A DNA stretch of 64,000 nucleotides. It comes from Bombella mellum. Lineage in GTDB: Bacteria > Pseudomonadota > Alphaproteobacteria > Acetobacterales > Acetobacteraceae. This document shows, one piece after another, positions 22,696 through 40,414 of this stretch; the stretch's first letter is position 1; every line of letters starts with the position of its first letter. The notes under the pieces were generated by a model. It worked only from the letters and a program-made list of their open reading frames with translations, did no database searches and was not told the origin of the DNA. The DNA lies in contig NZ_PDLY01000002.1 in NCBI RefSeq assembly GCF_014048465.1, positions 310,001 to 374,000 of the forward strand, given 5' to 3'. A program made the translations under genes and the position numbers.

Positions 22696-24066
22696 ATGTT
22701 AAATTTTGATAACAATTTCCCGGAGGTTCACGAGGTGGATGAGAAAAGATATTTCCTGACATGGAATTTTCAGATTCTTCGACAGAACTCCACAACCAGA
22801 ACACTTTATTGCTCCAAGCTGGGCAGCGAGTTTCCCGATGATGCCTTCGGCCTCACGCTGCCAGAAAACGACATTGCCGCACAATGTACATTCATCCCCC
22901 AGGGCGAGGAGATTGCGCCCTACCACGTTGACGACATCAAGATAACCTTTAACTCCGACATGCGGGTCTGGAATCTTCAGGACGGGAACGGGCTGTTTCT
23001 GTGTTTTGATTCCAAGATCCTGTCCTTTTCCAGAGAGCATGCCTCCTTCTGGGAAGGGTTCATCCTGCTGACACGCAACGAAATCGAAATGCTGACCCAT
23101 CTGCTCAACAACAGATGGGTCCTCCCCAAAACACAGAAAATCGTTGACGGCAGGGACTTCCAGTTCGTTGACGTCTTCAAGATGGCGATAGACGACTTCG
23201 ACGTCGACATGCGCTATCAGCTCTTCAAGTACTGGAACAAATATAACGTAACACTGTATTTCAATGGCTGGAAACGTGAGACCCTCTACCTCTACAATCC
23301 TGCCATATACATCACGGCCTACAGCAAAGACTCCATCATGCAGCAGTGCAGGATGTGCGTCACGTCACTGCGGAAAATGGGTGGTTTTACCGGTCCGATC
23401 ATCCTCATGACCGACAAGGACCAGAATTACATTGATGAACTTTTTGAAGGAAAGAAAGAATACACCGAAAACCTCATCATACATAACCTGTATCCAAAAG
23501 ACTTTCTTTCCTTTGTCTGCTCCAAATATGAAATAACGGACAAGGCCGACTTCGCAGGCTATCAGCCTCTCCTGTATCTGGACCCGGATATCATCATAGA
23601 CAGGCCGCTGGAGCCTCTCCTGATACGTGGTCTTTCAAGCGGCAAGATATGCTCCCCGGCGGAAGAGTTTCACCCCATACAGTCTCACATTCCGGCCGGT
23701 TCGTCCCTGTTCTCGATGGACGACATTCCGGGGCGTTTCACACCCGGCATCAATGGTGGCACCATCCTGTTTCCGAACACGGAAGATGACACGATCCGCC
23801 GCTTCATTGATGAAATACGGCACGAGGTCACGAACCTCGTCTTCAAGTTTGGCCGCTCCTTCAACGGCTGGGCCGATCAGGAGGCCTACAACTATCTGGC
23901 CATCAAGACCAATCTGGTCAATTCCAACGCCCTCACCTCATTCACGGCCTATCAGGGGCCCACGCATGACCGACGCCTCGGGCTGATCCATTTCTGGGGC
24001 TTCTCATCCGATGAGAAGGTGGAACGGATGCAGGACTACATGAAAGAGCTGGACTGTAATTTCTGA
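22696..24066 (+). CDS. Two-domain glycosyltransferase-like protein
   Basis: The C-terminal half (about residues 200-456) looks like a GT-A fold transferase distantly related to GT8: IYITAYSKDS opens it, YLDPDIIIDRP supplies the D-x-D metal motif (residues 296-298), INGGTILFPN and GWADQEAYNYL follow, and LIHFWGF is near the end. The N-terminal half is a separate beta-rich region ending FWEGFILLTRNE (residues 118-129), a signature shared with other proteins in this window. No signal peptide or membrane helix is seen, so it is probably cytoplasmic. The start is uncertain: an in-frame GTG at 22735 has a GGAGG eight bases upstream, whereas the ATG at 22696 has none. Donor and acceptor are unknown. 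Confidence 0.7.
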   Translation: MLNFDNNFPEVHEVDEKRYFLTWNFQILRQNSTTRTLYCSKLGSEFPDDAFGLTLPENDIAAQCTFIPQGEEIAPYHVDDIKITFNSDMRVWNLQDGNGLFLCFDSKILSFSREHASFWEGFILLTRNEIEMLTHLLNNRWVLPKTQKIVDGRDFQFVDVFKMAIDDFDVDMRYQLFKYWNKYNVTLYFNGWKRETLYLYNPAIYITAYSKDSIMQQCRMCVTSLRKMGGFTGPIILMTDKDQNYIDELFEGKKEYTENLIIHNLYPKDFLSFVCSKYEITDKADFAGYQPLLYLDPDIIIDRPLEPLLIRGLSSGKICSPAEEFHPIQSHIPAGSSLFSMDDIPGRFTPGINGGTILFPNTEDDTIRRFIDEIRHEVTNLVFKFGRSFNGWADQEAYNYLAIKTNLVNSNALTSFTAYQGPTHDRRLGLIHFWGFSSDEKVERMQDYMKELDCNF

Positions 24067-24073
24067 ACTTCTC

Positions 24074-24109
24074 ATGACGGTGGATCACTTCATGATGATC
24101 CACCGTCAT
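24074..24109 (+). terminator. Rho-independent terminator
   Basis: Perfect 14-bp stem (ATGACGGTGGATCA with TGATCCACCGTCAT), 8-base loop, followed by TTTTCT. It lies 8 bases after the glycosyltransferase stop and just before the 3' end of the convergent gene at 24116. Confidence 0.85.
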
Positions 24110-24115
24110 TTTCTG

Positions 24116-25024
24116 TCATGCCCTGTCAATTTTATTCCACATGAAGCCACAGACTATTTTTGGCAGCTGATTCCTCACTTCCTCTTTCACTTCCGCCACC
24201 AGCGCACGATATTCCAGCCTGTATTTGTTCCTTGTCCTGGGCTGGGGATGATCCCACGGTTTCGTATCTGCCACGAAATGATATATTGACGCATTCTCCT
24301 GGGCCTCTTTCACCTCCTCCTGCATGCTGTAGTCAAATTCGAGGCAGCTGGTCTTCAGGTGCTCGGCATAAAAATTCCAGCCCTGTGCAAAATGGTGGAG
24401 AGAGTCCTTGAAAACATGATTCAATATGGCCTCGTCATAAAATCTCCATTTTTTCTTTATGCACTCCACACAGTAGGACGCATCATCCTCCGTGATGGCC
24501 TCCATGTTGAAGAGGATCAGGCCACTGTTCACGTAAAGATAGGGATTGTTTATCCCCAGCATGTTTCTGCTGTATTTGTTGAAATCTCCAAAATCCTCAT
24601 ATTTCCTGTGGTTCCGTATCAGGCAACGGACGCCACCCAATTTCTTGTCATGAGGTATCTGGTTGATGATCTTCAGGACATCATCTCTCACGAGCATGTC
24701 GACATCAATGCTCAGAACCCGGTCATATTCCCTGAAGATCGTAGGAATGAACAGAGGAAAGTAGGTTTCCAGCGGCCTGTTCTCATCATTCGCAAAATTC
24801 ATGTTTTCCAGAAAGGAAGAACAGTCAACAAACGAAATGAGGCTTCCAAAGGCAGCGACCGTACGCTCCGCGATCTGGATTACGGTCTGATCAAGCTCCC
24901 TGTACAGTACGAAGAACTCAATCCTGCTGACGTCCGAACAATTGTCTATTATTGACTTGATCGTAACCAGTGCTGGCAGCAAATATTTTTTATTGAAGGA
25001 AACAACTATCGGAAAGGTATCCAT
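24116..25024 (-). CDS. GT8-family glycosyltransferase
   Basis: Retaining-type glycosyltransferase with the GT8 layout: N-terminal IVVSFNKKYLLPALVTIKSI, the metal motif SIDVDMLVRDDV (D-V-D at residues 107-109), YLYVNSGLILFN and ILNHVF, and a C-terminal His in IYHFVADTKPW. It is a close paralogue of the gene at 33020-33946. The metal motif falls at the same residue number when this start is used. The open frame extends to 25120, but the second ATG of an ATGATG pair (25024) has AGAGG five bases upstream and matches the paralogue's N-terminus. The substrate is unknown; a surface glycan is likely. Confidence 0.82.
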   Translation of the reverse strand: MDTFPIVVSFNKKYLLPALVTIKSIIDNCSDVSRIEFFVLYRELDQTVIQIAERTVAAFGSLISFVDCSSFLENMNFANDENRPLETYFPLFIPTIFREYDRVLSIDVDMLVRDDVLKIINQIPHDKKLGGVRCLIRNHRKYEDFGDFNKYSRNMLGINNPYLYVNSGLILFNMEAITEDDASYCVECIKKKWRFYDEAILNHVFKDSLHHFAQGWNFYAEHLKTSCLEFDYSMQEEVKEAQENASIYHFVADTKPWDHPQPRTRNKYRLEYRALVAEVKEEVRNQLPKIVCGFMWNKIDRA

Positions 25025-25256
25025 CATGCCCTCTTCTGACCAGACTGTCCGCTTCATAAAGGTTTTTACAATCTTTTCCAAGAAGCTTCTCCAGCACTGG
25101 TCAAGCCTCCCGTATGACATTCACTGTTAAACAGTCTCCATATGCTCATGGCAAAATTAATTGCTGTCGGCTTCACAAAGCGATTGAAACCTCTTCCAAC
25201 TCCACTATCATGCCGTCAATAATTGCTGCCCTGACAGGCAGCGACAGAGAGAGCGC

Positions 25257-26624
25257 ATGCCCACCACATCACCCAGTCACCATCCCCTCATCATGCTGAT
25301 CGTCGGCCTTCTGGTCACGGCCGTACTCATCGGCATCTCCATTCTCATTTCCCTGTCCGAAATCTCTTTTGCCGCAGCACGGGAAACCCGCATGCGGGCA
25401 CTGGCCAAGGAAGGTGACAAACGGGCACGGGCCTTCCTGCGTCTCCGCCGGAACAGCGGGCAGGTCATGACGGCCATCCAGATATGCCTCAATGCCGTCG
25501 GCATTCTTGGCGGTGTGGTGGGTGATGCCCTGCTGAGCGAACCCTTCGCCGCAGGCCTGCATTGCATGGGCCTTTCCACGCCTCTGGCTGACAAGATCGG
25601 GTCCCTGAGTTCCTTCATTCTCGTGACGGGGCTGTTCGTCCTTTTTGCCGACCTGCTGCCCAAACGTACGGCCATGAACGCCCCGGACAGGATCGCCCTG
25701 GCCGTGGGCTGGTTCCCTGCCCTCACCCTGCGCCTGCTCTATCCGGCCGTATGGATTTTCTCCCACATTGCCGACCTCATACTGAAACTGCTCCGCATCC
25801 CCGCCACGGCCACGGTGGAGGCCGTGACACCGGAAGACCTCCGGGCCATTCTGGCAGCGGGAACGGCCTCCGGTGTCCTGCTGGAGCAGGAACACCAGAT
25901 GATCCAGAACGTCATGGCTCTTCAGAACCGGTCCGTCACCTCCGCCATGACGCCACGGGACGAGATCGTCTATCTGGATGTCAATGAAAGTCTGGAAAGC
26001 CAGCGCGACAAGGTGAGGGTCCGTCCCTATTCCCGCTATCCATTCTGCGACGGGTCGCTGGACAAGGTCGTCGGGTCCATCCGGGCGGAAGACGTGCTGG
26101 TGGCCGTCGTGGATGAACCCGCCACGCTGACCAACCCGCAGAAAGCTCCCCCAAAGCAGATCTTCAACATGCGACGGGACGTGCTGTCCCTCCCTGACAC
26201 GCTGAACCTCTGGGAAACCCTGGCCCAGTTTGACACGCACGGGGCCGGTTTTGCGCTCATCTTCAATGAATATGGCCTGATTGTCGGCCTGATCACCTAC
26301 AAGGACATCATGGGGGCCCTGATGGACGGTCTGGCCAATCCTTTCGAGGAACAGGCCATCGTCCGCCGTGATGATGACTCATGGCTCATTGACGGGGCGG
26401 CTCCCATACTGGATGTCATCAGGGAACTGGACATCCCCCTCTTCCACGACAATGCCGAGTTTGACACGATCGCCGGTTTCATCACCCATCGCCTGCGCCG
26501 CATGGCCCGTAAGACGGACCGTGTAGAAGTGGCGGGGTTCCGTTTCGAGGTGGTGGACGTCGAACGGTTCCGCATCAACCAGCTTCTTGTCACCCGCATG
26601 AAACCTTCCCAGAAGACGGCATGA
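25257..26624 (+). CDS. CNNM/CorC-family membrane protein with CBS domains
   Basis: Integral membrane protein with an N-terminal DUF21/CNNM domain (about residues 13-190, three or four helices, including SLSEISFAAARE), a pair of CBS domains (about residues 205-345, MTPRDEIVYLDV onward and FALIFNEYGLIVGLITYKDI) and a C-terminal CorC/HlyC domain (WLIDGAAPILDVIRELDI). The family is linked to magnesium or cobalt efflux and is often misnamed hemolysin. GT genes flank it with no obvious functional link. A GCTGCC/GGCAGC hairpin lies in its leader. The ATG at 25293 is an alternative start. It is 4 bp from the next gene. Confidence 0.88.
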   Translation: MPTTSPSHHPLIMLIVGLLVTAVLIGISILISLSEISFAAARETRMRALAKEGDKRARAFLRLRRNSGQVMTAIQICLNAVGILGGVVGDALLSEPFAAGLHCMGLSTPLADKIGSLSSFILVTGLFVLFADLLPKRTAMNAPDRIALAVGWFPALTLRLLYPAVWIFSHIADLILKLLRIPATATVEAVTPEDLRAILAAGTASGVLLEQEHQMIQNVMALQNRSVTSAMTPRDEIVYLDVNESLESQRDKVRVRPYSRYPFCDGSLDKVVGSIRAEDVLVAVVDEPATLTNPQKAPPKQIFNMRRDVLSLPDTLNLWETLAQFDTHGAGFALIFNEYGLIVGLITYKDIMGALMDGLANPFEEQAIVRRDDDSWLIDGAAPILDVIRELDIPLFHDNAEFDTIAGFITHRLRRMARKTDRVEVAGFRFEVVDVERFRINQLLVTRMKPSQKTA

Positions 26625-26628
26625 CATC

Positions 26629-27225
26629 ATGACCATGAACGGCACGCAGTTCCGGACTGGAGACATCACCCCGCAGGATGCCCTGCTCATCATCGACATG
26701 CAGAATGACTTCATGCCGGGTGGAGCCCTGCCCGTTCCCGATGGCCCGGCCCTGCTTCCTGTCATCAACCAGCTGTCCCGGGCCGGTTTCCGGGCCGTCA
26801 TCGCCTCACAGGACTGGCACCCGGCCGGACACTGTTCCTTCAGGGAACAGGGAGGCCTATGGCCGATACACTGTCTGGCAGGAAGCCACGGTGCCGCCCT
26901 GCTGGATGGGCTGGACCAGGCCCATGTCACGCATGTCATCCGCAAGGGCCTGGCCCCTACGGCTGATTCCAACTCAGCTTTTTATGATGATGCCGGAACG
27001 GCCACCGGCCTGACCTCCCTGCTGCAAGGACTGGGGATCAGGCGGGTTTTTCTGTGCGGCGTTGCGCTGGAAGTCTGTGTCCTTGCCACGGCCCGCCATG
27101 CCGTACGGGATGGCTTTGAAACCTTCATCATCAGGAATGCCACGGCTGGCATCAAGTCCCCTTCAGCCTCCCTCACCGGTCAGGCCGAGCATATTGCCTT
27201 TCCTGAGTTCAGGGAGGCACCCTGA
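26629..27225 (+). CDS. pncA: Nicotinamidase
   Basis: Hydrolyses nicotinamide to nicotinate for NAD salvage. Isochorismatase-fold motifs are complete: the catalytic Asp in LLIIDMQNDFMPGGAL, metal ligands in SQDWHPAGHCSF, the catalytic Lys in VIRKGL and the nucleophile in GVALEVCV. Length (198 aa) is normal. It follows the CorC-like gene closely and is probably cotranscribed. An ATG two codons downstream (26635) is an alternative start. It converges on the next gene with only 4 bp between stops. Confidence 0.9.
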   Translation: MTMNGTQFRTGDITPQDALLIIDMQNDFMPGGALPVPDGPALLPVINQLSRAGFRAVIASQDWHPAGHCSFREQGGLWPIHCLAGSHGAALLDGLDQAHVTHVIRKGLAPTADSNSAFYDDAGTATGLTSLLQGLGIRRVFLCGVALEVCVLATARHAVRDGFETFIIRNATAGIKSPSASLTGQAEHIAFPEFREAP

Positions 27226-27229
27226 ACCG

Positions 27230-28612
27230 TTACTGCACCTCCTCTTCTTTCTCGGCTTCTGCGGGGATGGCCTGCTGCTGCTCTGCCTTCACGACAGACT
27301 GGACATAGTCGAAATAGGCCTTGACCCCTTCTTCCTTGGTCTCGAAGTTGCCGATCAGATTTCCATGGCCGCAGAAATGCACGATACCTGCACGGGCGAT
27401 CTTGCTGAAATCACTGTCTGGCCATGTGATGACAATGTCATTCAGATAAAAACAGTCATACTCACAGAACTTTATGAGAAGATAGTTCAGTGAGGACTGG
27501 TCTAGGACATTGTTATTGAACCCTTCCAGCTTGATGATGTTATGTGCGATCATCTGCATGGCCTGGCTGATGAAGCTGAATTCCTGAAATGACCGGAAGG
27601 CGAAAAAGCCTGAGTTGACGGGCCTTACATCATCCTCCGAGAGGCTCTTGTCCCGTAGGAGGAACGAACCGATGAACCAGCCGGACCGCAGGACAAAGTC
27701 CTTTGTCCGTCTTCCACACTCACAGGCGATGAAGAACCTGTTGCTGGCATGGACCGTGCGCAGCATGTCCGTAATGTCATTGTTGCAGATGATGTCGGCA
27801 TCCGAATACACGATGGGGCTGTATTCACGGAAATATTCGGCAATCTCCGGGCTGTATCTTTTATAATACCGGCTGTTCATGGCCACGGAAGGCATCCTGA
27901 TGATCCTGACGGGCGCATATTTGAGATCAGGCGGCAGGTCGACATCGTAAATGTTCGTGAAAATGAGAAAATTCAGGTTCGCCTTGGAGAACATCATGTA
28001 AGACCGTATGGAGGTGAACAGGGTCTCAAGATACCCCTCACCTCCAAAGGCACAGAAATAGACAAGGGGACGATATTTCTCGATCTCGATCAGGAAAACT
28101 TCTTCCGTGAGAAGCACGATCCGCTCGTCATGCAGGGATACCTTGATATTGGCTTCCAGACTGAAACGGTTCTCACCATCATCAATGACGAAGTCATGAA
28201 CCTTGACCTCTCTCTTTTCCGTCTCACCCGCATAGGTGAGGCCATTCTGGAAAAAATGCGCCAGAAGCGTGAAGGTATTTTCCGGGACGAGAAAAAATCT
28301 TGCCTCAAGGATTTTCTGATGCGTCAGCCGGATGGTGCCTTCAGCATCAGCGGCAAAAAGGATGCCATAGGAATATATGTGAAGGAACGAACTGGCCGTC
28401 TCGAAAACGATGTCATCATTGGGCAGGTCTCCGATTATGAACCGGCCTCCTGCCTCATCAAGATAACATTCACGCCCCTTGTGAAAGAGATTCCCTGTTC
28501 TGGGTGAGAAATAAACGGCCTCATCACCTAAAATGGATCTCAGCAACCTGAATGACAGCCGCTCGCCATCAAATATTAGAACCTTCCCGAACCGATCCAT
28601 TATATAATGCAC
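27230..28612 (-). CDS. Two-domain glycosyltransferase-like protein
   Basis: The C-terminal half (about residues 180-460) resembles GT8-like transferases: PLVYFCAFGGEGYLETLFTS, the metal motif VYSDADIICNND (D-A-D at 271-273), VNSGFFAF, LDQSSLNYLL and a late GIVHFCGHGN. The N-terminal half begins IMDRFGKVLIFDGE, which matches the opening of two stand-alone proteins encoded upstream (LDCFGHVIS and MDWFGHIIS), and later has ARFFLVPENTF where relatives have W-E-x-F. A GTG at 28612 with AGGAG seven bases upstream is the best start; an ATG at 28600 is the alternative. It ends a minus-strand series of glycan genes. Substrate unknown. Confidence 0.7.
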   Translation of the reverse strand: MHYIMDRFGKVLIFDGERLSFRLLRSILGDEAVYFSPRTGNLFHKGRECYLDEAGGRFIIGDLPNDDIVFETASSFLHIYSYGILFAADAEGTIRLTHQKILEARFFLVPENTFTLLAHFFQNGLTYAGETEKREVKVHDFVIDDGENRFSLEANIKVSLHDERIVLLTEEVFLIEIEKYRPLVYFCAFGGEGYLETLFTSIRSYMMFSKANLNFLIFTNIYDVDLPPDLKYAPVRIIRMPSVAMNSRYYKRYSPEIAEYFREYSPIVYSDADIICNNDITDMLRTVHASNRFFIACECGRRTKDFVLRSGWFIGSFLLRDKSLSEDDVRPVNSGFFAFRSFQEFSFISQAMQMIAHNIIKLEGFNNNVLDQSSLNYLLIKFCEYDCFYLNDIVITWPDSDFSKIARAGIVHFCGHGNLIGNFETKEEGVKAYFDYVQSVVKAEQQQAIPAEAEKEEEVQ

Positions 28613-28630
28613 AGAAAAACTCCTGATCAA

Positions 28631-28671
28631 CGTCAGGTCGTGCTGATAACCATGGCGTGCTGCACCTGACG
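28631..28671 (-). repeat. Inverted repeat in the leader of the glycosyltransferase at 27230
   Basis: CGTCAGGT and ACCTGACG form an 8-bp stem about 20 bases before the proposed GTG start, with a 25-base loop. It could be a leader hairpin or an operator. It is too long-looped for a classical terminator and has no T-run. Confidence 0.35.
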
Positions 28672-28755
28672 ATAGAGGAGTTTTTACCAGTCATTAACAA
28701 ATCATTCAAAAATTATCTTTCATCTCTCCCAGAAATGTCACGGCCACTGATCTGC

Positions 28756-30210
28756 CTATCTGCCGCACGTCCCCTGACAGAGCCATCCCCCCGTAAAACC
28801 TGCCTTCAGAAGGCCGGAGCGGATATAGGGGTTCTTCTTCATCACGTTCCAGACGAATTCACTTCGCAGATTTTCGCTCATCAGCAGGATCGGCCCCTGA
28901 TCAATCCCCAGCTGCTGGCCATCCACCCAGAAACCGTCATTGACACGGTAACTGGGGTTGAACGCATCAACAAACCCGTACCGATTGTAAATGACATTGC
29001 CATAACGGCGTTTCATCTCTTCCAGGGACGGCAGGGCAATTTCCGGGGCAAAGGCCACGGAGCCGCCAACAGCCGTCGGGGCGATGGTGCCATCATCCAG
29101 CACATAATCCTTCCCAGCACCCCGGGCACTGTAGGCCAGGAAATGACGTTTTTCCCCATCCACTTCCTGCACGCTGTCTCCAGGACCATCCGATGCCGTC
29201 AGTCCCCAGACCGATCCGTCATAGCCTTTCCAGTGACCGGGATTACGCACTGCGTACTCCCTCTGTGCATAGACGGCCTCCCGGCTGTTCTGGAAATAGT
29301 CATACCCCCGCTGAAGACTGGCCTTGTCCTGAATGTGCCGGAAATCCACCCAGCACTCGCTGTACTGGTGCCCGAACAGGGGGGCGAAATTCAGGAAATT
29401 ATGGCCGTAGAAGCTGCCCTGCTGCCCCCGCTGCGTCTCCGTCCAGCGGTCCCACAACCCTTCCGGCAGACCGTGTTCCGGTGCTCCAAGAGCCATGATG
29501 TAAAGCAGCATTCCTTCATTATAGCCCTTCCACTGGGAAGACAGGAAATGACCCGGTGGCATCCAGCCCATGCTCAGCCACTCGCTGTCATCACCCCGCA
29601 TCCAACGCCAGTCCACCCGACGGTAGAGCCGATCCGCCAGCCTCCTTATCTCCTGCTCACGGGCATCCTGACGGTCATAGTAAGACTGGGCGAACAGCAC
29701 GCCGCCCATCAGCAGGGCCGTGTCTATGCTGGAAAGTTCGGACCAGTCAGCAACCCTCAGGCCGGTGTTGGGGTCCAGAAAATGATAGAAAAAACCGTGC
29801 GACCCGGCCGTGCCCCTGACAGCCTCCCCCTGGGGCAGTCCTTCCAGAAAACGCAGCGTCACCAGCGTACGCTCCACGGCCTGCTGCCGGGTTATGTAGC
29901 CCCGCTCCACGCCAATGCCATAGGCTGTCAGACCGAACCCCACACTGGCAATGCTGGCGGCTCCATTCATCAGGGGAGCCCTGTCCGGGACCAGACCATT
30001 TTTGGGGTTGGCCGTGTCCCAGAACCAGCTGAAGGTACGCTGTTCCAGATCATCCAGAAACGCCAGATGCTTCTGGTCATTCAGGGAAAAAGAAACGTCC
30101 GCCTTTCCCGGGACAGGTCCCTTTTCCTGGGACAGGGCCGGAACGGCCGTCACGAAGAGAGACGCCAGAACCAGCGAAAAGCATGACGTAAATTTCACCC
30201 TGTTTTTCAT
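28756..30210 (-). CDS. Secreted glucoamylase-like protein (Glycoamylase family)
   Basis: The protein starts with a signal peptide (MKNRVKFTSCFSLVLASLF, cleavage likely after ALS or nearby). An all-alpha toroid of the type named putative glucoamylase (PF10091) follows: LEQRTFSWFWDTANP near residue 55, GYNEGMLLYIMALG, HQYSECWVDFRHIQD, WGLTASDGP and the C-terminal MSENLRSEFVWNVMKK. The members probably act on periplasmic or surface glucans; few have been characterised. The open frame starts at 30291, but the ATG at 30210 gives a proper signal peptide. Its place among GT genes suggests trimming or remodelling of the glycan they make. Confidence 0.82.
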   Translation of the reverse strand: MKNRVKFTSCFSLVLASLFVTAVPALSQEKGPVPGKADVSFSLNDQKHLAFLDDLEQRTFSWFWDTANPKNGLVPDRAPLMNGAASIASVGFGLTAYGIGVERGYITRQQAVERTLVTLRFLEGLPQGEAVRGTAGSHGFFYHFLDPNTGLRVADWSELSSIDTALLMGGVLFAQSYYDRQDAREQEIRRLADRLYRRVDWRWMRGDDSEWLSMGWMPPGHFLSSQWKGYNEGMLLYIMALGAPEHGLPEGLWDRWTETQRGQQGSFYGHNFLNFAPLFGHQYSECWVDFRHIQDKASLQRGYDYFQNSREAVYAQREYAVRNPGHWKGYDGSVWGLTASDGPGDSVQEVDGEKRHFLAYSARGAGKDYVLDDGTIAPTAVGGSVAFAPEIALPSLEEMKRRYGNVIYNRYGFVDAFNPSYRVNDGFWVDGQQLGIDQGPILLMSENLRSEFVWNVMKKNPYIRSGLLKAGFTGGWLCQGTCGR

Positions 30211-30377
30211 GATGACTGTCGCCTTCTTCCTGAGAGCAAACATCCCACTGTCCGGACATGACGGAGCCGTCATCCTGAGGACAGGAAGCACCTGCCCTCA
30301 CCACAGCGGGCTATAGGAAGGCTACCATACGCCCCTTCATCGTCAAGGAGAGATTAAAGCCCCATGAACGGGTCGGG

Positions 30378-31436
30378 TCAGTCCGCCCAGGGGAAATACC
30401 CGTCTGTCACTATGGGCGTATCCCGCCTGTAATAGTGCTTCTCTCCCAGCTGATGCTTGTGGTGGTCGTCATGATTTCTGAAAATGCTGTACTGGATACC
30501 GTTTGACCAGCTGTGGATGTTCCTGACGATGTCCTCGCAGCCCTTCCTGTATTCATGGACAATCATTGAATACATCAGGGGGCCAATGAACCGCAGCACG
30601 CCGTAAGACCCTGTCCCATTGAGGAATGGCCTGTACACCCTGATGTTGCACAGGGCCTGCTGGATGATTCTCCTCATCAGCGGATGGCCGGCTGCACAGA
30701 TGATGTAATACTGCTCGTACTCACCATAGGGCATGTGCTCTATTTCCAGATGCACCTGTGCCCCATGATACCAGCGGGACAGGAGGAAACGGTCGCCCGG
30801 ACGGATGGTCGTGTCCAGAGAATGGGTGAAGGACGTCTTCAGGTCAAAATAGACACCACCAACAGCATAGAGGCACAGATACCTGAAAAAATCAGCACGG
30901 GCCGCCGGGTAATCCGGGCTGATGGCCTCATAATAGTCAAGGATTTCCTCACCGTAATGTTCCTTGATGAACTCCTTGATCTCGTAGAAACCACCCTCTG
31001 ACCAGAAGTAATATTCATAACTCTGGTTCATGGAGACGACGGTGTTCCTGTTCTCCACATAGGCCTCCGGATAGCTTCCCGGCTTGTCCCTGAAAATTCC
31101 CACCTGATGGATTTTCTTCGAGATATGTTCCGCTTCCTTGATGTACGGAAGGGGCGGAGGAAGGATGGCCTGGTCAATGTCCCGGAAGGTCTCGCAACGA
31201 TCCACGCCCGGCATGTGGTACAGGGCCAGGCTGGGAGAAGAGGAGAGGAAACCCGCATCATTCCGGAAGAAGGTCACGATGTCATGGTCACGCCGTTCGA
31301 TGCCGTAACCTGCCTTCACGAGGTCCCTTGCCGTTGCGGGCGGAGGAGTGTCATCATCGTAAAAGGCGCACAGAAAACGCTGTTCCAGACCATCCTGACC
31401 AACAACCAGATAACTGCCATGAGCAGAAATAAACAT
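30378..31436 (-). CDS. GT32-like (OCH1-type) glycosyltransferase with N-terminal module
   Basis: The catalytic part starts near residue 105 with the GT32 opening ISKKIHQVG. ARADFFRYLCLYAVGGVYFD is the family core (residues 179-198), with the metal motif in the variant form D-L-K. Homologues transfer sugars in capsule or LPS synthesis. The first 100 residues are a separate region with GSYLVVGQDG and GFLSSSPSLALYH...CETF (about 62-84), comparable to the W-E-x-F modules of neighbouring proteins with Trp replaced. It lies between the two small paralogous proteins and the glucoamylase-like gene on the same strand. Confidence 0.75.
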   Translation of the reverse strand: MFISAHGSYLVVGQDGLEQRFLCAFYDDDTPPPATARDLVKAGYGIERRDHDIVTFFRNDAGFLSSSPSLALYHMPGVDRCETFRDIDQAILPPPLPYIKEAEHISKKIHQVGIFRDKPGSYPEAYVENRNTVVSMNQSYEYYFWSEGGFYEIKEFIKEHYGEEILDYYEAISPDYPAARADFFRYLCLYAVGGVYFDLKTSFTHSLDTTIRPGDRFLLSRWYHGAQVHLEIEHMPYGEYEQYYIICAAGHPLMRRIIQQALCNIRVYRPFLNGTGSYGVLRFIGPLMYSMIVHEYRKGCEDIVRNIHSWSNGIQYSIFRNHDDHHKHQLGEKHYYRRDTPIVTDGYFPWAD

Positions 31437-31454
31437 GCCTAACCCTTCCAGACC

Positions 31455-32096
31455 TTAAAAATCAACCTGCCCGCATCGTGTAACAACCAGATCATATTTT
31501 CGGCCTGGCCTGAATCCGGCAAACGTGACGGAAACGCTCTCCCCTGTTTTCAGCTGCCCGATACGGGAAAACGCCTCCATGTTCTCACGCACGGCAATCC
31601 GCTTCCGGCCAAAGCCGGCCGTGAACAGCTTCTGCTCATGCGCCTGGACGAAGTGCAGGCTGTCCAGTGTCTCCCCCTCTTCTGTCCTGATCTTCCCCAT
31701 CAGAGGGTCCGTCAGCACCAGAAGCCCCTCGAAGGCGTCCCGTGTGAAAGGAAGGAATTTCTCCCATTCGGCTGCATGAGCAGACCATGTCGTCTTGTTG
31801 GTCCCGGGGTCAATCGCCGTGTAGGCCTTGTTCTCTTCGCAATAGAACGACACCAGACCATCCGGCCATGATATCAGGCTCATCTGGGGCAGCTTCACGA
31901 TGCCGCCAAAAATGTCCCAGAACTTCATCTGAAAATGCTCGGGAGCCGGATGCGGCATGACGCTGTACCCGCTCACCAGAAACCCCTGAAGGGGGATGCG
32001 GACAAGCTCATGCCAGTAATTGTTGTAACTTATTACATGACCGAAACAGTCAAGAAACCACATCTGTTCAAATGAATAAGGATGTTTCTTTACCAC
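31455..32096 (-). CDS. Protein of unknown function, paralogue of 32253-32885
   Basis: No known family is recognised. The 213-residue protein has no signal peptide or membrane helix and is probably cytoplasmic. It lines up along its length with the next upstream protein: MWFLDCFGHVIS (residues 12-23), AIDPGTNKTTW (94-104), WEKFLPFTRDAF (111-122) and a beta-rich end ESVSVTFAGF. The start is a GTG at 32096, with a GAAGGG about ten bases upstream. It sits between GT genes on the same strand, which suggests a role in the same glycan process. A stand-alone beta-trefoil-like fold is my inference from the pattern. Confidence 0.7.
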   Translation of the reverse strand: MVKKHPYSFEQMWFLDCFGHVISYNNYWHELVRIPLQGFLVSGYSVMPHPAPEHFQMKFWDIFGGIVKLPQMSLISWPDGLVSFYCEENKAYTAIDPGTNKTTWSAHAAEWEKFLPFTRDAFEGLLVLTDPLMGKIRTEEGETLDSLHFVQAHEQKLFTAGFGRKRIAVRENMEAFSRIGQLKTGESVSVTFAGFRPGRKYDLVVTRCGQVDF

Positions 32097-32184
32097 GCTT
32101 CAAATACCCTTCCCGCTCCGCGCAAACCCGAGGCCCTGCACCAACCAGACGACAGGAGCCATCATCCCCCTGTCATTTCATAAA

Positions 32185-32221
32185 AAATACCGCCCTTCTT
32201 CAGAAAAGAAGGACGGTATTT
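32185..32221 (-). terminator. Rho-independent terminator (minus strand)
   Basis: A 16-bp stem with one mismatch (AAATACCGCCCTTCTT against AAGAAGGACGGTATTT) and a short loop, followed on the minus strand by a run of T's. It lies about 30 bases after the stop of the gene at 32253 and before the gene at 31455, so it may separate two transcription units. Confidence 0.8.
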
Positions 32222-32252
32222 CAACAGCCTCACTCGTCTAAAGTCAGTCTTT

Positions 32253-32885
32253 TCAGTCGAATGACTTCTCGGTACGGACGATCGTGAGACGAGCCACGTC
32301 CCCAAAGTTGCTGACCAGCGTGACCTCAACGGACGCACCGGCCGGTGTCTGGCCGATCTTCTCGAGGTTCTGCAGGTTCCGGGAAATGGAGAAGGCAAAA
32401 CCGCCCAGCCAGGCGAAGTTGCCGACATTCTCGGCAACGGAAGGCCACATCAGGGTCGGGGCCGGGTGGCCGCTCATCTTCACGTCACCATAGGCATGGT
32501 CCAGAAGCACGGAAAGACCATCCATCATCCCTTTCGTCAGCGGAATGAAACGCTCCCAGTCATACATGGCCACCGAGTTCCAGTGGGTGTCATTGTTGCG
32601 GGGATCGATGGAGAAATATGTGCCCGTGTCCTGATCTTCCAGAGCGACGAGGTTCTCACCGGCTTCCACGAACTCGGCGTCGGGCAGCCCTTCCGCAATG
32701 GAGGACGTGTGCCGGAAGGTGACGCGTGACGGCGTCTTGACAGGCCAGGAACCCAGCACGAACGTGTCAGGATAGTCCCCCGGATGCATATAATGACGCT
32801 GCAGCATGCCACCCTGCGTCGGCTGGCTGATGATGTGACCAAACCAGTCCATGATCCACAGACGCTGTAACCGATCCCCGCTCAT
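32253..32885 (-). CDS. Protein of unknown function, paralogue of 31455-32096
   Basis: A 210-residue protein of no recognised family. Shared blocks with its paralogue are LWIMDWFGHIIS (9-20), SIDPRNNDTHW (92-102), WERFIPLTKGMM (110-121) and ASVEVTLVSNF near the end. No signal peptide or membrane helix is seen. The ATG at 32885 has GAGGGG seven bases upstream and is preferred to a TTG at 32900. A strong terminator follows, so it may be expressed separately or at a different level from its paralogue. Context suggests a role in glycan assembly; a sugar-binding or scaffold role is inference only. Confidence 0.72.
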   Translation of the reverse strand: MSGDRLQRLWIMDWFGHIISQPTQGGMLQRHYMHPGDYPDTFVLGSWPVKTPSRVTFRHTSSIAEGLPDAEFVEAGENLVALEDQDTGTYFSIDPRNNDTHWNSVAMYDWERFIPLTKGMMDGLSVLLDHAYGDVKMSGHPAPTLMWPSVAENVGNFAWLGGFAFSISRNLQNLEKIGQTPAGASVEVTLVSNFGDVARLTIVRTEKSFD

Positions 32886-33019
32886 GGGCTTTCCCCTCAA
32901 AAGTTAAAACATGTTCGCCATAGCGAAATCAAAACATTACCAGAACACTTCCAAACCATTTACGGTTTCAGATTCATGCTTTGGATACCAGAGCCGTAAA
33001 AGAAAAGGCAAGCCCTCTC

Positions 33020-33946
33020 TCACGCCTCCTGCCAGTCGACCCTGTTCATCTGCCGCCACATGGACCCGCAGAGCGTCTCAGCGGCCATTTTCTCCACCGC
33101 TGCCTTCACGTCCCGCCACAGGGCACCATACTCTTTCATGTAGCGGTTTTCGACACTGGGACCAGAACTCAGCCACGGCTTGTACCTGCCCAGAAAATGC
33201 ACGATCGAGAACTCGCCGTCTGCCTTCAGGAGATCACTGCTGACGGGAGGCGTGAAATGCAGCGCATTCTCGTCCATGAAGAACACGTCCATGTTCCATT
33301 TCGCCGGGAAGAGATGCAGGTGATCCTGGAAAACGTGATTGAGGATGCCCTCGTCGTGATGCTCCCATCTTTTCTGTATCAGATCAACGCATCTGTGCCT
33401 GTCTTCGGTCGTGATGTTCCGGTTGTTGAACACGACGACACCAGAATTGAAATAATCATACGGGTTTCTGACTTTCAGGACATCATGTGCATAGGCCCTG
33501 AACCCGTGATAGTCGTCGCCGTATTTGGTATAGTTCCTGTACATACAGCGCACGGCCCCGACCTTTCTGTCATCGGCCAGCTCATCCACCATGGTCAGAA
33601 CATCATCCCGGACAAGAAGGTCCACGTCCAGATAGAGCGTCCGGAGGTATCGTGAAAAAATTGACGGTATCAGCAGCGTGTTGAATGTCTCGCTGGAATG
33701 ATGGCCCGCATTGGGATTGTAGACACCTTCGATGTCATCCCGGCAGTCCACGAAAGTGATGATCCCGCCCCATGATGCGACGAGCTTTTCACACAGCAGG
33801 ACGATGTATCTGTCCAGCCCGTTATGAAGGGCGAAAAACTCCAGCCGACCGGGAGAGGCCGAACTCCTGATGACGGAAAGGATCGTGATGAGGGCGGGAA
33901 TCGTATATTTTTTATTGAAAGAAACGACGACAGGAACAGTATTCAT
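33020..33946 (-). CDS. GT8-family glycosyltransferase
   Basis: Clear paralogue of 24116-25024. VVVSFNKKYTIPALITIL opens the protein, YLDVDLLVRDDVL carries the D-V-D metal motif at residues 107-109, and YFNSGVVVFN, ILNHVFQDHLH and IVHFLGRYKPW follow. The two end alike with CGSMWRQMNRVD and CGFMWNKIDRA. The frame is open to 34012, which would run into tRNA-Arg; the ATG at 33946 fits the paralogue. It is the first gene of the minus-strand glycan series. Acceptor unknown. Confidence 0.83.
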   Translation of the reverse strand: MNTVPVVVSFNKKYTIPALITILSVIRSSASPGRLEFFALHNGLDRYIVLLCEKLVASWGGIITFVDCRDDIEGVYNPNAGHHSSETFNTLLIPSIFSRYLRTLYLDVDLLVRDDVLTMVDELADDRKVGAVRCMYRNYTKYGDDYHGFRAYAHDVLKVRNPYDYFNSGVVVFNNRNITTEDRHRCVDLIQKRWEHHDEGILNHVFQDHLHLFPAKWNMDVFFMDENALHFTPPVSSDLLKADGEFSIVHFLGRYKPWLSSGPSVENRYMKEYGALWRDVKAAVEKMAAETLCGSMWRQMNRVDWQEA

Positions 33947-33977
33947 CTTCTGCTCTGTGATACCGATGAAAACATGC

Positions 33978-34054
33978 TGGTGCGCCCTGCTGGATTCGAA
34001 CCAGCGACCCACAGCTTAGAAGGCTGTTGCTCTATCCAGCTGAGCTAAGGGCGC
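33978..34054 (-). tRNA. tRNA-Arg(TCT)
   Basis: A 77-base cloverleaf with acceptor stem GCGCCCT/AGGGCGC and encoded CCA. The anticodon stem ACAGC/GCTGT closes the loop CTTCTAA, whose centre is TCT. The T arm contains GGTTCGAATCC. Confidence 0.96.
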
Positions 34055-34075
34055 TCCTGGCCGTGCTGTGCAACG

Positions 34076-34152
34076 TGGTCGGGGCGCCCGGACTCGAACC
34101 GGGGGCCTCCTGTACCCAAAACAGGCGCGCTACCAGGCTGCGCCACGCCCCG
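34076..34152 (-). tRNA. tRNA-Pro(TGG)
   Basis: A 77-base cloverleaf with acceptor stem CGGGGCG/CGCCCCG and encoded CCA. Anticodon stem CCTGT/ACAGG closes TTTGGGT, giving TGG. It lies 21 bases upstream of tRNA-Arg and is probably cotranscribed with it. Confidence 0.96.
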
Positions 34153-34749: not shown

Positions 34750-34806
34750 GACCTGTCCGTTTCCTTCTCCGAGACCGTCGCTCTCCCGCCCCCATGAAGC
34801 GGACAC

Positions 34807-34924: not shown

Positions 34925-34936
34925 TCAGCTGGGCAC

Positions 34937-34965: not shown

Positions 34966-35024
34966 GCCCCTTTTTTCAGGAAACGGAAAAATATGCCCGC
35001 ACGTCCCTGACAGACGAAAAGCAT

Positions 35025-35068
35025 AAAAAAAAGCCCGCACCATGATGGCCGGACTTGCAGAAAGGGCT
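35025..35068 (-). terminator. Terminator of tRNA-Asn copy 2
   Basis: Same arrangement as for copy 1: AGCCC/GGGCT stem on the minus strand followed by eight T's. Confidence 0.6.
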
Positions 35069-35143
35069 GGCTCCCGAAGTAGGACTCGAACCTACGACCC
35101 AGCGATTAACAGTCGCTTGCTCTACCAACTGAGCTATTCGGGA
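35068..35143 (-). tRNA. tRNA-Asn(GTT), copy 2
   Basis: Identical in sequence to the copy 219 bp away, with the same acceptor stem, anticodon GTT and encoded CCA. Confidence 0.96.
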
Positions 35144-35155
35144 TCAGCTGGGCAC

Positions 35156-35184
35156 TGTCTACCCAAACTCCCCGAAAACGTAAA
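35156..35184 (-). promoter_or_regulatory. Promoter of tRNA-Asn copy 2
   Basis: TTTACG and TAGACA on the minus strand, 17 bases apart, at the same distance from the tRNA as in copy 1. Confidence 0.55.
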
Positions 35185-35201
35185 GCCCCTTTTTCAGGAA
35201 T

Positions 35202-36624: not shown

Positions 36625-36630
36625 GACAGG

Positions 36631-37653
36631 TCAGACCGCATCGGAGAGCGGGTGCGGAAGGCGGAAATTGATGTTTTCCTCCTTCACGATACGCTCCTCG
36701 ATCGTGACGTCATAGCGGACGGAAAGCTGCTCGATCATTTCCTGCACGAGGCTCTCCGGGGCGGAGGCCCCAGCACTCATGCCCAGCGTCCTGACCCCTT
36801 CCAGCTCACTCCAATCCATGTCCGACACCTTGGGCACCAGCAGGGCACGCTTGGCCAGAGACCGCTCGGCCACCTCACGCAGACGCTGGGAATTGGACGA
36901 GTTCGGCGAGCCGATGACGATCACCAGATCACACTCGGCCGCCAGCTCCTTGACCGCCATCTGACGGTTGGTCGTGGCATAGCAGATGTCTTCCCGGCGT
37001 GGTCCCACGATGTTGGGGAAACGGGAACGCAGGATGTCCACGATCTCCGCCGTGTCATCAACGGACAGGGTCGTCTGCGTGATGAAGGCCAGACGGTCCA
37101 CGTCCTTCGGCTGGACCTCGGACGCCTCCTTCGCATCATTGATCAGCGTGACGGCTCCCGGCGGCAGCTGCCCCATCGTGCCGACCACCTCGGGATGTCC
37201 GGCATGGCCGATCATGAGGATGTGACGCTGCTCCGGGCCACCACCGGCAAAATGACGTTCAGCCTCCCTATGGACCTTGGAGACGAGCGGGCATGTGGCA
37301 TCAAGATAAAGCAGGTTGCGCCGCTGCGCCTCGGCCGGAACGGACTTGGGCACGCCATGGGCGGAGAACACCACATGACCATCGGGCGGAACCTCGTCCA
37401 GCTCCTCCACGAAAATGGCCCCCTTGGCTTCCAGCCCTTCCACGACCGTGCGGTTGTGCACGATCTCGTGGCGGACATAGACGGGTGCCCCATAACGGCG
37501 CAGTGCCTCCTCGACCACTCGGATGGCCCTGTCGACCCCGGCGCAGAAACCACGCGGCCCCGCCAGAAGAATCTTCAGCGGCTGCTTCCCGGCTGCTGAA
37601 TCTGCTCCGGGGACGGCAGAGTTGGAGGTTACAGGCGTCGTCTGTTCTGACAT
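36631..37653 (-). CDS. ispH: 4-hydroxy-3-methylbut-2-enyl diphosphate reductase
   Basis: Last enzyme of the MEP isoprenoid pathway, a [4Fe-4S] protein making IPP and DMAPP. The three cluster cysteines lie in [25 protein letters not shown] and [21 protein letters not shown] and the late [12 protein letters not shown] are also characteristic. About 25 residues of low-complexity N-terminus precede the core. It begins the ispH-thrB-rnhA run. Confidence 0.95.
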
Positions 37654-37818
37654 AATCTTCCCCAGGCAGGCGATGAACGATACGATGTTGAACGGTCCGG
37701 TGATGCTCCATGCAAGGCCATGGCCTCTTCCGCATCACCGCTCTGGGCCTCTATATCGTCCGTATTGCCGTCTGCTGCAATGTCCTGCACCATTTTCTTG
37801 TGGAGTTTTCTGAGTCCG

Positions 37819-38421
37819 ATGCCCGCATTCTCCCTCTCCCCCCGCATCTTTTCCCGCCTTGCAGCGGGCCTCGGCTCCCTCATGCTGGCTGGTCTGCTGA
37901 GCGGATGTGAAGAGGCGGACACCACGCACACCTTTGCTCCCGCCTGTCCCAGATTTGACGTCCCCGGCCAGGTGGCGGACCGCATCACCTATGATGGAAA
38001 AGGACTTGATGCCGCCCACCGCCTGACCTCGACCCACATACTGGGCGTGCAGGGCGACTGCCGCAACGGCCCGAGGGACGAGCAGAAACGCCCCATGACC
38101 CGTGTCCGCGTCAGCCTGAACCTCCAGCTGGAGCGTGGCCCTGCCGCCAGTGCGGACACGGTGACGGTTCCCTATTTCGTCGCCATCCTTCAGGATGGGG
38201 CCATCGTCGACAAGAAAATCTTCACGGAGACCATCAGGCTGCCACCGACCGTCTCCATCAGCCACAGCAGCACGCCCCTGCGTTTCATCGACGTGCCGAC
38301 CGGAAACAACCCGCAGATCAGCCCCTATACGATGGAGATCGGCCTCCAGCTCAACCATTCCGAACTGGACTACAACCGCAGCCACCTGCGCACGGCCCAG
38401 TTCCACGAGCATGTGCAGTAA
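37819..38421 (+). CDS. Putative lipoprotein
   Basis: The first 30 residues from the ATG at 37819 form a lipoprotein signal (ends LMLAGLLSGC, lipobox L-S-G-C). The mature part (about 170 residues) is beta-rich, with RVRVSLNLQLERGP and VPYFVAILQDGAIVDKK. No known domain is named with certainty. It is divergent from ispH, with a 165-bp shared upstream region, and ends at a strong bidirectional terminator. The frame is open upstream to 37720, but that start would put 33 residues before the signal. Confidence 0.82.
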   Translation: MPAFSLSPRIFSRLAAGLGSLMLAGLLSGCEEADTTHTFAPACPRFDVPGQVADRITYDGKGLDAAHRLTSTHILGVQGDCRNGPRDEQKRPMTRVRVSLNLQLERGPAASADTVTVPYFVAILQDGAIVDKKIFTETIRLPPTVSISHSSTPLRFIDVPTGNNPQISPYTMEIGLQLNHSELDYNRSHLRTAQFHEHVQ

Positions 38422-38459
38422 GTCCACCCCTGCGGGGTGAAGCCTGTCCCCGACATGAA

Positions 38460-38488
38460 AAAGGCCCCTCCGAAATGGAGGGGCCTTT
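38460..38488. terminator. Bidirectional terminator
   Basis: Perfect 12-bp stem (AAAGGCCCCTCC with GGAGGGGCCTTT) and a 5-base loop GAAAT. A T-rich stretch follows on both strands. It sits between the convergent lipoprotein gene and the glycosyltransferase ending at 38495. Confidence 0.9.
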
Positions 38489-38494
38489 CTTCTG

Positions 38495-40414
38495 TCATAT
38501 CTGATGCAGGGGAATGCTGCCTTTTTTCTCCTCGACCAGAGGATCAAGCACGTAACGCCATTCCTCTTTCAGACGGGAGGCGACATCAGCTTCCTCCACC
38601 ATGTCCAGCAGGGCCAGAAGACGTTCCTGCCAGGTTTCACGCACGACGTTCTCGGCCCGGGCGATGCTGTCAATGCTCCGCAGTCTGGTCAGTTCATCCA
38701 GCAGGTCCTCGGAGCGGCTCATGATCCTGTCATTCCGCCCTTCATGCGGGTCATTCATCTGGCAAATGAAGGCATTGGCCCAGTAATCGGCGTAGCGTTC
38801 CACACCGAAGGACATGGCTCCGTCCAGCCCACTGTTGCGGGCATATTTCCAGACCCATTCGATGATCGACTTGTAGTAATAATGGGAGATGTAAATGTCC
38901 TCATAATTACCATGGTCGGCAAAGGCCGGATCAGCCCCGATGCCCGGCGGCGGATTGCGGTACCCATGAACGGCCCCGTCGGTCAGCCTGTAGGTGAAAC
39001 TCTCCGCACCCACCCAGACCGGGTGATGAGGCCGCGACTGGATGGCACGCCCCGGACGGACCGCCGACTTGACGAGACGCCAGCCCTCGCCGATCCCCCC
39101 CTGCGAGACGATCTTCTGGTTGCGCTGTGTCAGCGGCATGGTCAGGTCAGCCAGCCCGCCCCTGTTGACCTCCGAGGCCACGAACTTCCAGTTCAGGGCG
39201 ATGGCGTCACTCTCCCAGCGGGAAAAGGCCTGAAGGTAGTCGCCCACGGTGCGGTAGGACGGTGACAGGGTGATGAACTCGTCGCCATCCAGAATGAAGC
39301 ACCATTCATAGTCCAGAATGTTCGGCAGGATGTTCAGCCCATGTCCGTAGGCTTTCGTCTGGGCGGACATGCCCGGCTCGACCGGGTTCTCGATGAAGGT
39401 GATGATCCCCTCGTCATGCAGGGCCTTCAGCAGCAGGTCGGAGCGGTCGTTGTTGTCATTGCTGTAGATGAAGAAATGCTCGACCCCGATGCTCCGGTGA
39501 TAGGCCAGCCACTCCAGAATGTAGATGCCCTCATTGCGGATGGTGGACATCAGGCAGACCTTCCTGCGTGGCTTCACGCTGGCCCGGGCCGTATGCAAAG
39601 TTGCCTGGGCAAAGCCGGCAGGGGCATCAAGCTGCCCGTAGGTCAGGACGGCATCCCCCAGAGGGCAGCCCCGCTCCTCCGCCGGGTAGCTGTCCCTGTC
39701 TTCCACCCAGCGGGCCAGACAGTCCCAGCCATCCCGCCAGGGGGCCTTCCCGGCACGACGGAGGAAGGTCTCACGCAGCGTCGCATCCTCCAGAAGCCTC
39801 CGGCCCATGTCCCGGATGACGGACCATGCGGCCACGGGCACCATGGCGTCCAGCAGCCAGCCCAGATAAGGCCCCTCGTGACGGCTGATCAGGTTTTCGA
39901 AATGCTCAACGGACGGGAAGGCCGTGAAGAATGTGGCCATGTCCTCACCGAACTGGCGCAGCTCCTCGGTGGCCGCAACCTCGTGCAGCTGGAACTGCTC
40001 CCAGCCCAGCATGTGGCTACAGTCACCGATGAATTCGTTGACACCGCTGCTGCTGTTCCAGGGCTGGGCCGTGCAGCAGTGACTTGGCCGCAGAAGGTTC
40101 CGGAGACCGATGCGCCCCTCATATCCGAGGATGTCAACACGGCGGAACGGCAGCACGGCCCCCTTGTAGGAGAAATGCTTGACCCAGAGGGCGGGAGGTT
40201 CCGTCTCCCCCGCCCGTGGGGCAGCCAGCAGGAACACGTAGTCAGGCTGCCCGGCCAGGGTCATGGCCAGAAGGGGAACATAAAGAGGCTCGTTCTCTTC
40301 GTCCCGACGGGCCATCTCGTCAGAACGGACATGGCATACCCCATGGTCCTCACACCGGACGGCCAGCCACCCCTGGTGCCCTGTTTCCAGATAATGAAAA
40401 GTGGCTTCAGCCAT
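38495..40414 (-). CDS. Glycosyltransferase, GT2/GT92-like, with N-terminal module
   Basis: Catalytic domain from about residue 283 to 540: KVCLMSTIRNEGIYILEWLA, HFFIYSNDNNDRSD, CFILDGDEFI (the D-x-D motif at 376-378) and a His-rich YISHYYYKSIIEW. This is the pattern of the Glyco_tranf_2_4/GT92 group. The first 145 residues are a beta-rich region ending HMLGWEQFQL (W138), which shares the W-E-x-F signature with other proteins of the GT blocks. Residues 150-280 are mainly helical. No membrane segment is visible. Substrate unknown. Confidence 0.8.
   Translation of the reverse strand: MAEATFHYLETGHQGWLAVRCEDHGVCHVRSDEMARRDEENEPLYVPLLAMTLAGQPDYVFLLAAPRAGETEPPALWVKHFSYKGAVLPFRRVDILGYEGRIGLRNLLRPSHCCTAQPWNSSSGVNEFIGDCSHMLGWEQFQLHEVAATEELRQFGEDMATFFTAFPSVEHFENLISRHEGPYLGWLLDAMVPVAAWSVIRDMGRRLLEDATLRETFLRRAGKAPWRDGWDCLARWVEDRDSYPAEERGCPLGDAVLTYGQLDAPAGFAQATLHTARASVKPRRKVCLMSTIRNEGIYILEWLAYHRSIGVEHFFIYSNDNNDRSDLLLKALHDEGIITFIENPVEPGMSAQTKAYGHGLNILPNILDYEWCFILDGDEFITLSPSYRTVGDYLQAFSRWESDAIALNWKFVASEVNRGGLADLTMPLTQRNQKIVSQGGIGEGWRLVKSAVRPGRAIQSRPHHPVWVGAESFTYRLTDGAVHGYRNPPPGIGADPAFADHGNYEDIYISHYYYKSIIEWVWKYARNSGLDGAMSFGVERYADYWANAFICQMNDPHEGRNDRIMSRSEDLLDELTRLRSIDSIARAENVVRETWQERLLALLDMVEEADVASRLKEEWRYVLDPLVEEKKGSIPLHQI

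Follow-up and report, generated by a model that had tools for sequence, protein, structure and literature searches.

What six otherwise different proteins of a bacterial glycan cluster have in common, when all of them carry the motif W-E-x-F or a weaker form of it, is the question raised by a 64,000-nucleotide stretch of Bombella mellum DNA (contig NZ_PDLY01000002.1, positions 310,001 to 374,000; hereafter, the window). Bombella are acetic acid bacteria of the class Alphaproteobacteria that live with honeybees, and the window sits in a genome of 2.07 Mb. The six proteins are designated here by letters, namely A (22696-24066), C (27230-28612), E (30378-31436), F (31455-32096), G (32253-32885) and I (38495-40414), and a neighbour, D (28756-30291), lies among them. 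Our conclusion, to which we assign a probability of roughly 0.62, is that the six share one homologous beta-trefoil module of the fascin-like/CBM92 superfamily, which likely serves as a built-in, single-site carbohydrate-binding module on glycosyltransferases (GTs). What is established here is the homology, the trefoil fold of G, the alignment of WExF with its counterpart in CBM92, and the gene order; a role of the module in sugar binding is plausible, since glucan binding through WExF is described, in the portion of the CBM92 study drawn on here (PMC11039641), for CBM92, the characterised family nearest to it in sequence.

An earlier note on this DNA had pointed out the pattern, and every motif that it quoted was located. 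Exact WExF lies at residue 111 of F (WEKF), 110 of G (WERF), 119 of A (WEGF) and 138 of I (WEQF), with the weaker EARF at residue 103 of C and CETF at residue 81 of E; in profile alignments these two fall in the register of WEGF, with Trp replaced by Glu and Glu by Ala in C, and Trp replaced by Cys in E. Companion motifs are found near the start of F (DCFGHVIS, residues 16-23), G (DWFGHIIS, 13-20) and C (DRFGKV, from residue 6), and upstream of WExF in F (AIDP, residue 94) and G (SIDP, residue 92). Among 57 open reading frames (ORFs) of at least 100 amino acids, chosen greedily by length with little mutual overlap (19,793 amino acids), exact WExF occurs in four, namely F, G, A and I, always within residues 110-138, where composition alone would predict 0.52 matches. 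When all 193 ORFs of at least 100 amino acids are taken, overlaps included, a fifth appears at 62180-62713 on the forward strand, in none of the six proteins.

The small proteins F and G are homologous to each other (52 of 196 columns identical, 27%; E-value 7e-22), and a profile built from the two detected relatives, mostly stand-alone proteins of ~200 amino acids, in 25 of the 200 genomes sampled from the host's family. In an alignment of 31 stand-alone rows (A2), one Gly is invariant, and Asp13, Pro68, Trp110, Glu111, Phe113, Leu127 and Asn170 of G mark positions conserved in at least 90% of rows; exact WExF is present in 27 rows and, as read from the alignment, its Trp in 30. A tree of this family gives full support to the F group and to the G group, the deeper branching order being unsupported; its rows labelled mutY include L027, whose label does not come from reading its gene context.

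The link from this family to the GTs is carried by profile-profile comparison. The stand-alone profile was linked to the N-terminal segment of A at 98.2%, of I at 96.6%, of E at 85.2% and of C at 53.7%, and the A module to C and E at 97.0% each and to I at 96.9%; A thus links strongly to the stand-alone family and to C, E and I, and can be regarded as the hub. The pairs E-I and C-E reached 69% and 51%. In 45 control comparisons, made with profiles that were reversed or came from catalytic domains, no value exceeded 1.1%, save that of C against its own reverse (22.6%; the C profile consists of two rows). The alignments behind these profiles retained 20 of 30 ORFs for A (430-510 amino acids), 13 of 29 for E (330-380 amino acids), 22 of 30 for I (600-680 amino acids) and 1 of 27 for C (L074, the sole N-terminal match); each adds the window protein and drops the self hit, and rows with letters in less than 40% of the segment were removed, as was L117, by hand, from the E alignment, in which L106 and L120 are a duplicate pair.

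Ranking of the window ORFs agrees with this grouping. A profile of the A family (A5), which includes A and none of F, G, C, E and I, ranked among the 193 ORFs A (7e-54), C (3.3e-5), G (1.1e-4), F (4.9e-4) and E (0.16), the next ORF scoring 1.3 and the best reversed sequence 2.6. With a combined profile (A7) of F, G and relatives of A, E and I, containing none of C, the six proteins took the top six places: G, F, A, I (1e-9), E (0.19) and C (0.31), followed by 0.70 for the next ORF and 0.57 for the best reversed sequence; rows of this profile were chosen for having WExF, and the invariance of WExF in its alignment is a result of that choice. The kinship that the earlier note perceived among the six patterns is borne out by these results as one homologous module in all six. 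The stand-alone profile matched N-terminal segments of GT homologs, mostly in the WExF region (I homolog, 1.3e-7; A homologs, 3.9e-7 and 5.5e-7, the latter across residues 3-168; E homologs, 3e-3 to 4e-3), and the window proteins themselves were marginal (A, 0.013; C, 0.55; I, 0.67), window E being unlisted. In two whole-genome profile searches at E-values up to 10, all 5 and all 8 matches were GTs or stand-alone members; 2 and 3 of these, respectively, are profile rows, and the others include close relatives of rows. Outside the window there are four matches: paralogs of A (GT8-like) and of E (GT32-type), a mutY-linked copy of the stand-alone family, and the GT2_4 protein L195, which carries the module at its C-terminus (WECF at residue 443 of 525).

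The same note held that the catalytic domains behind these modules belong to different GT groups. This needs one correction: the groups number three and not four, since the catalytic parts of A and C are homologous (99.3% in profile comparison), those of E and I differing. C exceeds the cut-off for PF01501 (33.5 bits), for which A gives no match; E matches PF04488 (Gly_transf_sug, GT32-type) at 45.6 bits against a cut-off of 23, and I matches PF13704 (61.7 bits) and PF01697 (40.9 bits), both above cut-off.

The structure model of G is a beta-trefoil, and fascin gave the top VIA Z for this model; in a viral structure library, the matches were weak, none at an E-value of 0.001 or lower, and several were fibroblast growth factors or other trefoils. 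The fascin-type trefoil suspected in the earlier note is thus supported by the G model, with fascin among its top matches, and a model of the N-terminus of E reached a predicted local distance difference test (pLDDT) score of 42. By sequence, the best match in the PDB is CBM92: the A-family profile matched 7zoh at 5e-10 and fascin at 1.6e-7, both summed over repeats with no single CBM92 repeat reaching 0.01, and the stand-alone profile matched 7zoh at 9e-7 (summed over repeats) along with designed trefoils. Fascin (PF06268) and DUF7910 (PF25490) share the fold of the module as modelled in G, and neither was matched by the six window proteins at E-values up to 1 or by the 31 stand-alone rows at E-values up to 0.1; a related C-terminal module, in L199, has a sub-threshold fascin match (0.039), and L197 matches DUF7910. 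More generally, Pfam and NCBIfam gave no above-cut-off match in the module part of the six proteins. F has a sub-threshold Pfam match to PF22057 (0.17), Pfam searches with the 31 stand-alone rows gave two chance-level matches (0.08 and 0.086, one row each), and an NCBIfam search with four members of the family gave none.

According to the portion of the CBM92 study drawn on here (PMC11039641), WExF is highly conserved and ends each repeat; its Trp stacks on a glucosyl unit, its Glu binds O3 and O4, and an Arg makes contact in one site. The same portion describes Trp-to-Ala variants with reduced binding, a natural CBM92 with Trp in the gamma (third) site only that still binds, most weakly, and members without Trp in at least one site, the founding member having none. 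CBM92 sequences have an Arg six residues ahead of the Trp (position -6), which by its spacing would correspond to Arg955 of that study. Binding of beta-1,6-glucans is a further trait of CBM92. The modules described here resemble CBM92 (CpCBM92A/B, PDB 7ZOI/7ZOH) in their beta-trefoil, in a WExF closing a repeat and, in many A-type modules, in the Arg at -6, which is found in 12 of 21 A rows, 6 of 23 I rows, 1 of 14 E rows and 1 of the 2 C rows. Of the 21 A rows, 18 have WExF itself in the aligned column (that of L058 falls outside the column), and half of the E rows contain it (7/14; e.g., GWERF and GWEEF). Many A-type modules therefore appear to retain the full CBM92 site, whereas F, G and window I appear to retain the Trp-Glu pair, and window C and E, which read Glu-Ala and Cys-Glu at these two positions, have apparently lost the Trp. 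In C and in the E proteins of Bombella, the site has probably decayed and the module is probably structural, and C and E may not bind sugar. In contrast to the window modules, which have one site, in the third repeat, CBM92 commonly has three, and it is found on glycoside hydrolases, about half of them predicted to be secreted by one route, whereas the partners in the window are GTs or none (CBM92 as described in the same portion of PMC11039641); a further difference is the alpha/beta extension of A, F and G. The words glycosyltransferase and transferase are absent from the main text of PMC11039641.

We propose that the module, N-terminal in the GTs and retaining the WExF site in its third repeat only, would hold the terminal sugar of a growing acceptor glycan, the Trp stacking on it and the Glu providing hydrogen bonds, with help from the Arg at -6 in many A-type proteins. 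By keeping this sugar beside the catalytic domain, the module could determine which acceptors are used or how they are retained. F and G, as free copies of the module with its extension, might attach in trans to the glycan, or to the partners, that the GT-borne modules recognise. The ligand would be a glycan of this kind, and the place of action the cytosol, if our reasoning is correct.

Several observations weigh against this reading. I was missed by the A-family profile among the window ORFs. Single-profile scores were 0.16-0.19 for E and 3e-5 (A-family profile) or 0.31 (combined profile) for C; E is thus significant in neither test and C with the A-family profile only, so that both rest on the profile-profile results, and the direct comparison of C with I reached only 0.4%, which provides no direct support. 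No Foldseek match of the G model had an E-value of 1e-3 or lower, almost all of the 50 matches listed being trefoils or trefoil-containing proteins, and with a pLDDT of 42 for E, no GT N-terminal structure is confirmed. Exact WExF occurs at most once per protein across the 91 rows of five alignments, none of which shows the three WExF sites of CBM92; HETF was seen by eye in the apparent first repeat of L150, a relative of I. Trp is missing from window C and from the E proteins of Bombella and Saccharibacter, and the Arg at -6 is missing from window I and from all 31 stand-alone rows. Finally, in 18 of the 20 regions read, the stand-alone family has MutY upstream on the same strand, outside glycan clusters.

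Some of these points would suit a protein-protein docking domain that assembles the GTs of the cluster, with F and G as adaptors and WExF being mostly structural, like the E-x-F of fascin. E-x-F without Trp is found both in fascin repeats and in protein E (CETF), the Arg is gone from every stand-alone row, and F and G matched no enzyme family in the Pfam and NCBIfam searches. We nevertheless consider docking unlikely, since the exact motif and above all its Trp are kept in nearly all stand-alone rows and at the aligned column in most A rows, and since this Trp is a binding residue in CBM92, as described in the portion of PMC11039641 used here. Still less probable is the view of the module as a structural cap that the GTs have inherited, a degenerate remnant, binding nothing at present, of a three-site, CBM92-like ancestor. 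One of three sites remains, Trp has been lost in C and in the E proteins of the two genera, and the gene for C, intact in the window, is reduced to a 61-aa remnant in Bombella dulcis (L034:14110-14292), with no match in two other Bombella genomes searched; a mere cap, however, fits poorly with the persistence of F and G as free modules in the window and four other compared clusters, and with the conservation of W, E and F in at least 90% of the stand-alone family.

The motif is only four letters long, its versions in C and E are weak, and the stand-alone profile is marginal against window A, C and I and blank for E, all of which would be compatible with chance sharing among unrelated proteins. 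Profile-profile links with clean controls, the excess of exact WExF over expectation and the recovery of the six at the top of 193 ORFs by the combined profile led us to reject this explanation, which we regard as highly improbable. The single-site carbohydrate-binding module remains our preferred reading.

The earlier note had also taken the module for a domain of the cluster, and this is not the case: relatives stand beside mutY, on GTs encoded elsewhere in the genome and, in other bacteria of the class, on enzymes of glycan metabolism, and confinement to the cluster was rejected on the spread of the stand-alone family through the sampled family genomes and on its MutY neighbourhood. MutY is directly adjacent in 14 of the 18 regions and ~2.7 kb away in four Bombella genomes; the 20 regions cover 21 of 36 match places, with ten copies in clusters, three places in genus g85 and a single place in each of G158 and G046 omitted. 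The identity of MutY is based on HhH-GPD and NUDIX_4 in one protein (L036) and on BLAST matches to L036; a MutY-like frame was seen by eye just upstream in L032, L036, L039 and L040. Single-copy relatives of F and G (L161-L169 and L172-L180; the host's own copy, G000:C6:248816-249385) adjoin mutY, opposite a DciA-like gene, in many acetic acid bacteria, and we have no obvious explanation for a stand-alone trefoil protein tied to a DNA-repair gene.

Beyond the host's family, the fusion partners of the module are GT2_4 plus an FkbM methyltransferase (L196), an FkbM methyltransferase (L200), a GT32-type protein (L201) and a GT4/GT25-like protein (L202). C-terminal copies are found in GT2_4/GT2 proteins of this genome (L195) and of two family genomes (L203 and L204), and in L199 and L205, which have no above-cut-off Pfam match. 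A class-wide search with the A-type profile matched 3 of 385 genomes, including the host and one more of its family, the third being represented by L187, a 170-aa frame carrying three WExF motifs; a phylum-wide search with the combined profile matched 7 of 398 genomes, three of them from the host's family. Detectable copies are thus rare elsewhere. A plasmid search gave no match for G and one Acetobacter aceti plasmid for A, and of the six proteins one matched PHROGs, namely E at residues 106-266, outside the module, to a family of unknown function.

Tentatively, and as a possibility less likely than the single-site reading itself, acetic acid bacteria, together with certain others of their class, might rely on a single exchangeable acceptor reader, a one-site trefoil of CBM92 type that can be plugged in at the N- or C-terminus of GT8-like, GT32, GT2_4/GT92-like and GT4-like transferases and of FkbM methyltransferases, with free F and G acting in trans, so that unrelated enzymes of one pathway would recognise the same nascent intracellular glycan. 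A single-site module of CBM92 type that recurs on three groups of bacterial GTs and in free proteins would provide annotators with a domain model for which Pfam and NCBIfam gave no above-cut-off match, and acceptor recognition in bacterial polysaccharide assembly could then be probed at the WExF Trp alone.

Most known carbohydrate-binding modules belong to secreted hydrolases, and most of the transferases known to have lectin domains are eukaryotic; the polypeptide N-acetylgalactosamine (GalNAc)-transferases have a trefoil lectin-type domain, and these eukaryotic domains belong to other trefoil families. In the portions of the literature drawn on here (PMC4432651, PMC9296478, PMC7759382), the polypeptide GalNAc-transferases, GnT-IVa and the protein O-mannosyltransferases with their MIR domains, which are trefoils like the module, likewise combine a transferase with a separate domain of carbohydrate-binding type; the proteins described here differ in being bacterial and in using one module type across three GT groups and in free copies. 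The Hydra PPOD proteins, as presented in part of PMC3531485, are fascin-related trefoils of bacterial origin with a conserved surface Trp and glycan binding, and they differ in being secreted and tandem, with three predicted sites per domain. Among the open-licence PMC papers listed in our searches, none connects fascin-like domains with bacterial glycosyltransferases. The domain was called undescribed in the earlier note, which is correct as far as above-cut-off Pfam and NCBIfam matches are concerned; it is, however, a known carbohydrate-binding fold in a divergent, single-site version, related to CBM92 and bacterial fascin-like domains and reused on GTs and as free proteins, and its novelty is moderate.

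Table 1. Trefoil modules, extensions and a conserved neighbour in the window
Feature	Position	Strand	Evidence
G beta-trefoil module (residues 5-118)	32532..32873	-	WERF 32547-32558; DWFGHIIS 32826-32849; stand-alone protein 32253-32885
G C-terminal alpha/beta extension (residues 119-210), partly common to GT A	32256..32531	-	Modelled secondary structure; stand-alone versus A N-terminal profile alignment (162 columns) reaches into extension
F beta-trefoil module (residues 10-119)	31740..32069	-	WEKF 31755-31766; DCFGHVIS 32028-32051; homology to G; fold by homology
F C-terminal extension (residues 120-213)	31458..31739	-	Alignment with G
A N-terminal trefoil module (residues 18-130), GT8-like protein	22747..23085	+	WEGF 23050-23061; Arg 6 residues before Trp; profile-profile 98.2%, E-value 5e-14 to stand-alone family; fold by homology
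A extension linking trefoil to catalytic domain (residues 131-195)	23086..23280	+	Alignment with stand-alone extension
C degenerate N-terminal trefoil module (residues 2-125), GT8-like protein	28238..28609	-	EARF 28295-28306 in WExF register; profile-profile 97.0%, E-value 9e-11 to A N-terminus; genome-wide E-value 6.1e-4
E compact N-terminal module (residues 1-92), GT32-type protein	31161..31436	-	CETF 31185-31196 in WExF register; profile-profile 97.0%, E-value 1e-10 to A N-terminus, 92 columns
I N-terminal trefoil module (residues 5-149), Glyco_tranf_2_4/GT92-like protein	39968..40402	-	WEQF 39992-40003; profile-profile 96.9% to A N-terminus, 96.6% to stand-alone family; combined-profile E-value 1e-9
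D, PF10091 glucoamylase-like protein, no module found	28756..30291	-	Pfam E-value 1.5e-77; conserved neighbour in G-F-E-D order

The order G-F-E-D is kept in the window, in Bombella dulcis, in two further Bombella genomes and in Saccharibacter sp. 17.LH.SD (Table 1). PF10091, the family of D, is presumably tied to beta-1,2-glucanases (GH144), which would suit a glucan theme. G+C content is 51-57% at 22-34 kb against 62-67% upstream of that stretch, and this low-G+C cluster is bounded by ligA on one side and by the tRNA-Arg and tRNA-Pro genes (33978-34152) on the other. Within 22000-34000 there are also genes that we take to be CNNM/CBS-like and nicotinamidase-like, kept in the four other compared clusters. 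The C-terminal residues 273-436 of a GT2 protein at 41456-42892 match DUF1796 below threshold (E-value 2.7e-4). The open frame of a GT8 protein at 33020-34012 runs into the tRNA-Arg gene (33978-34054), and its true start is probably internal, near MNTVPVV.

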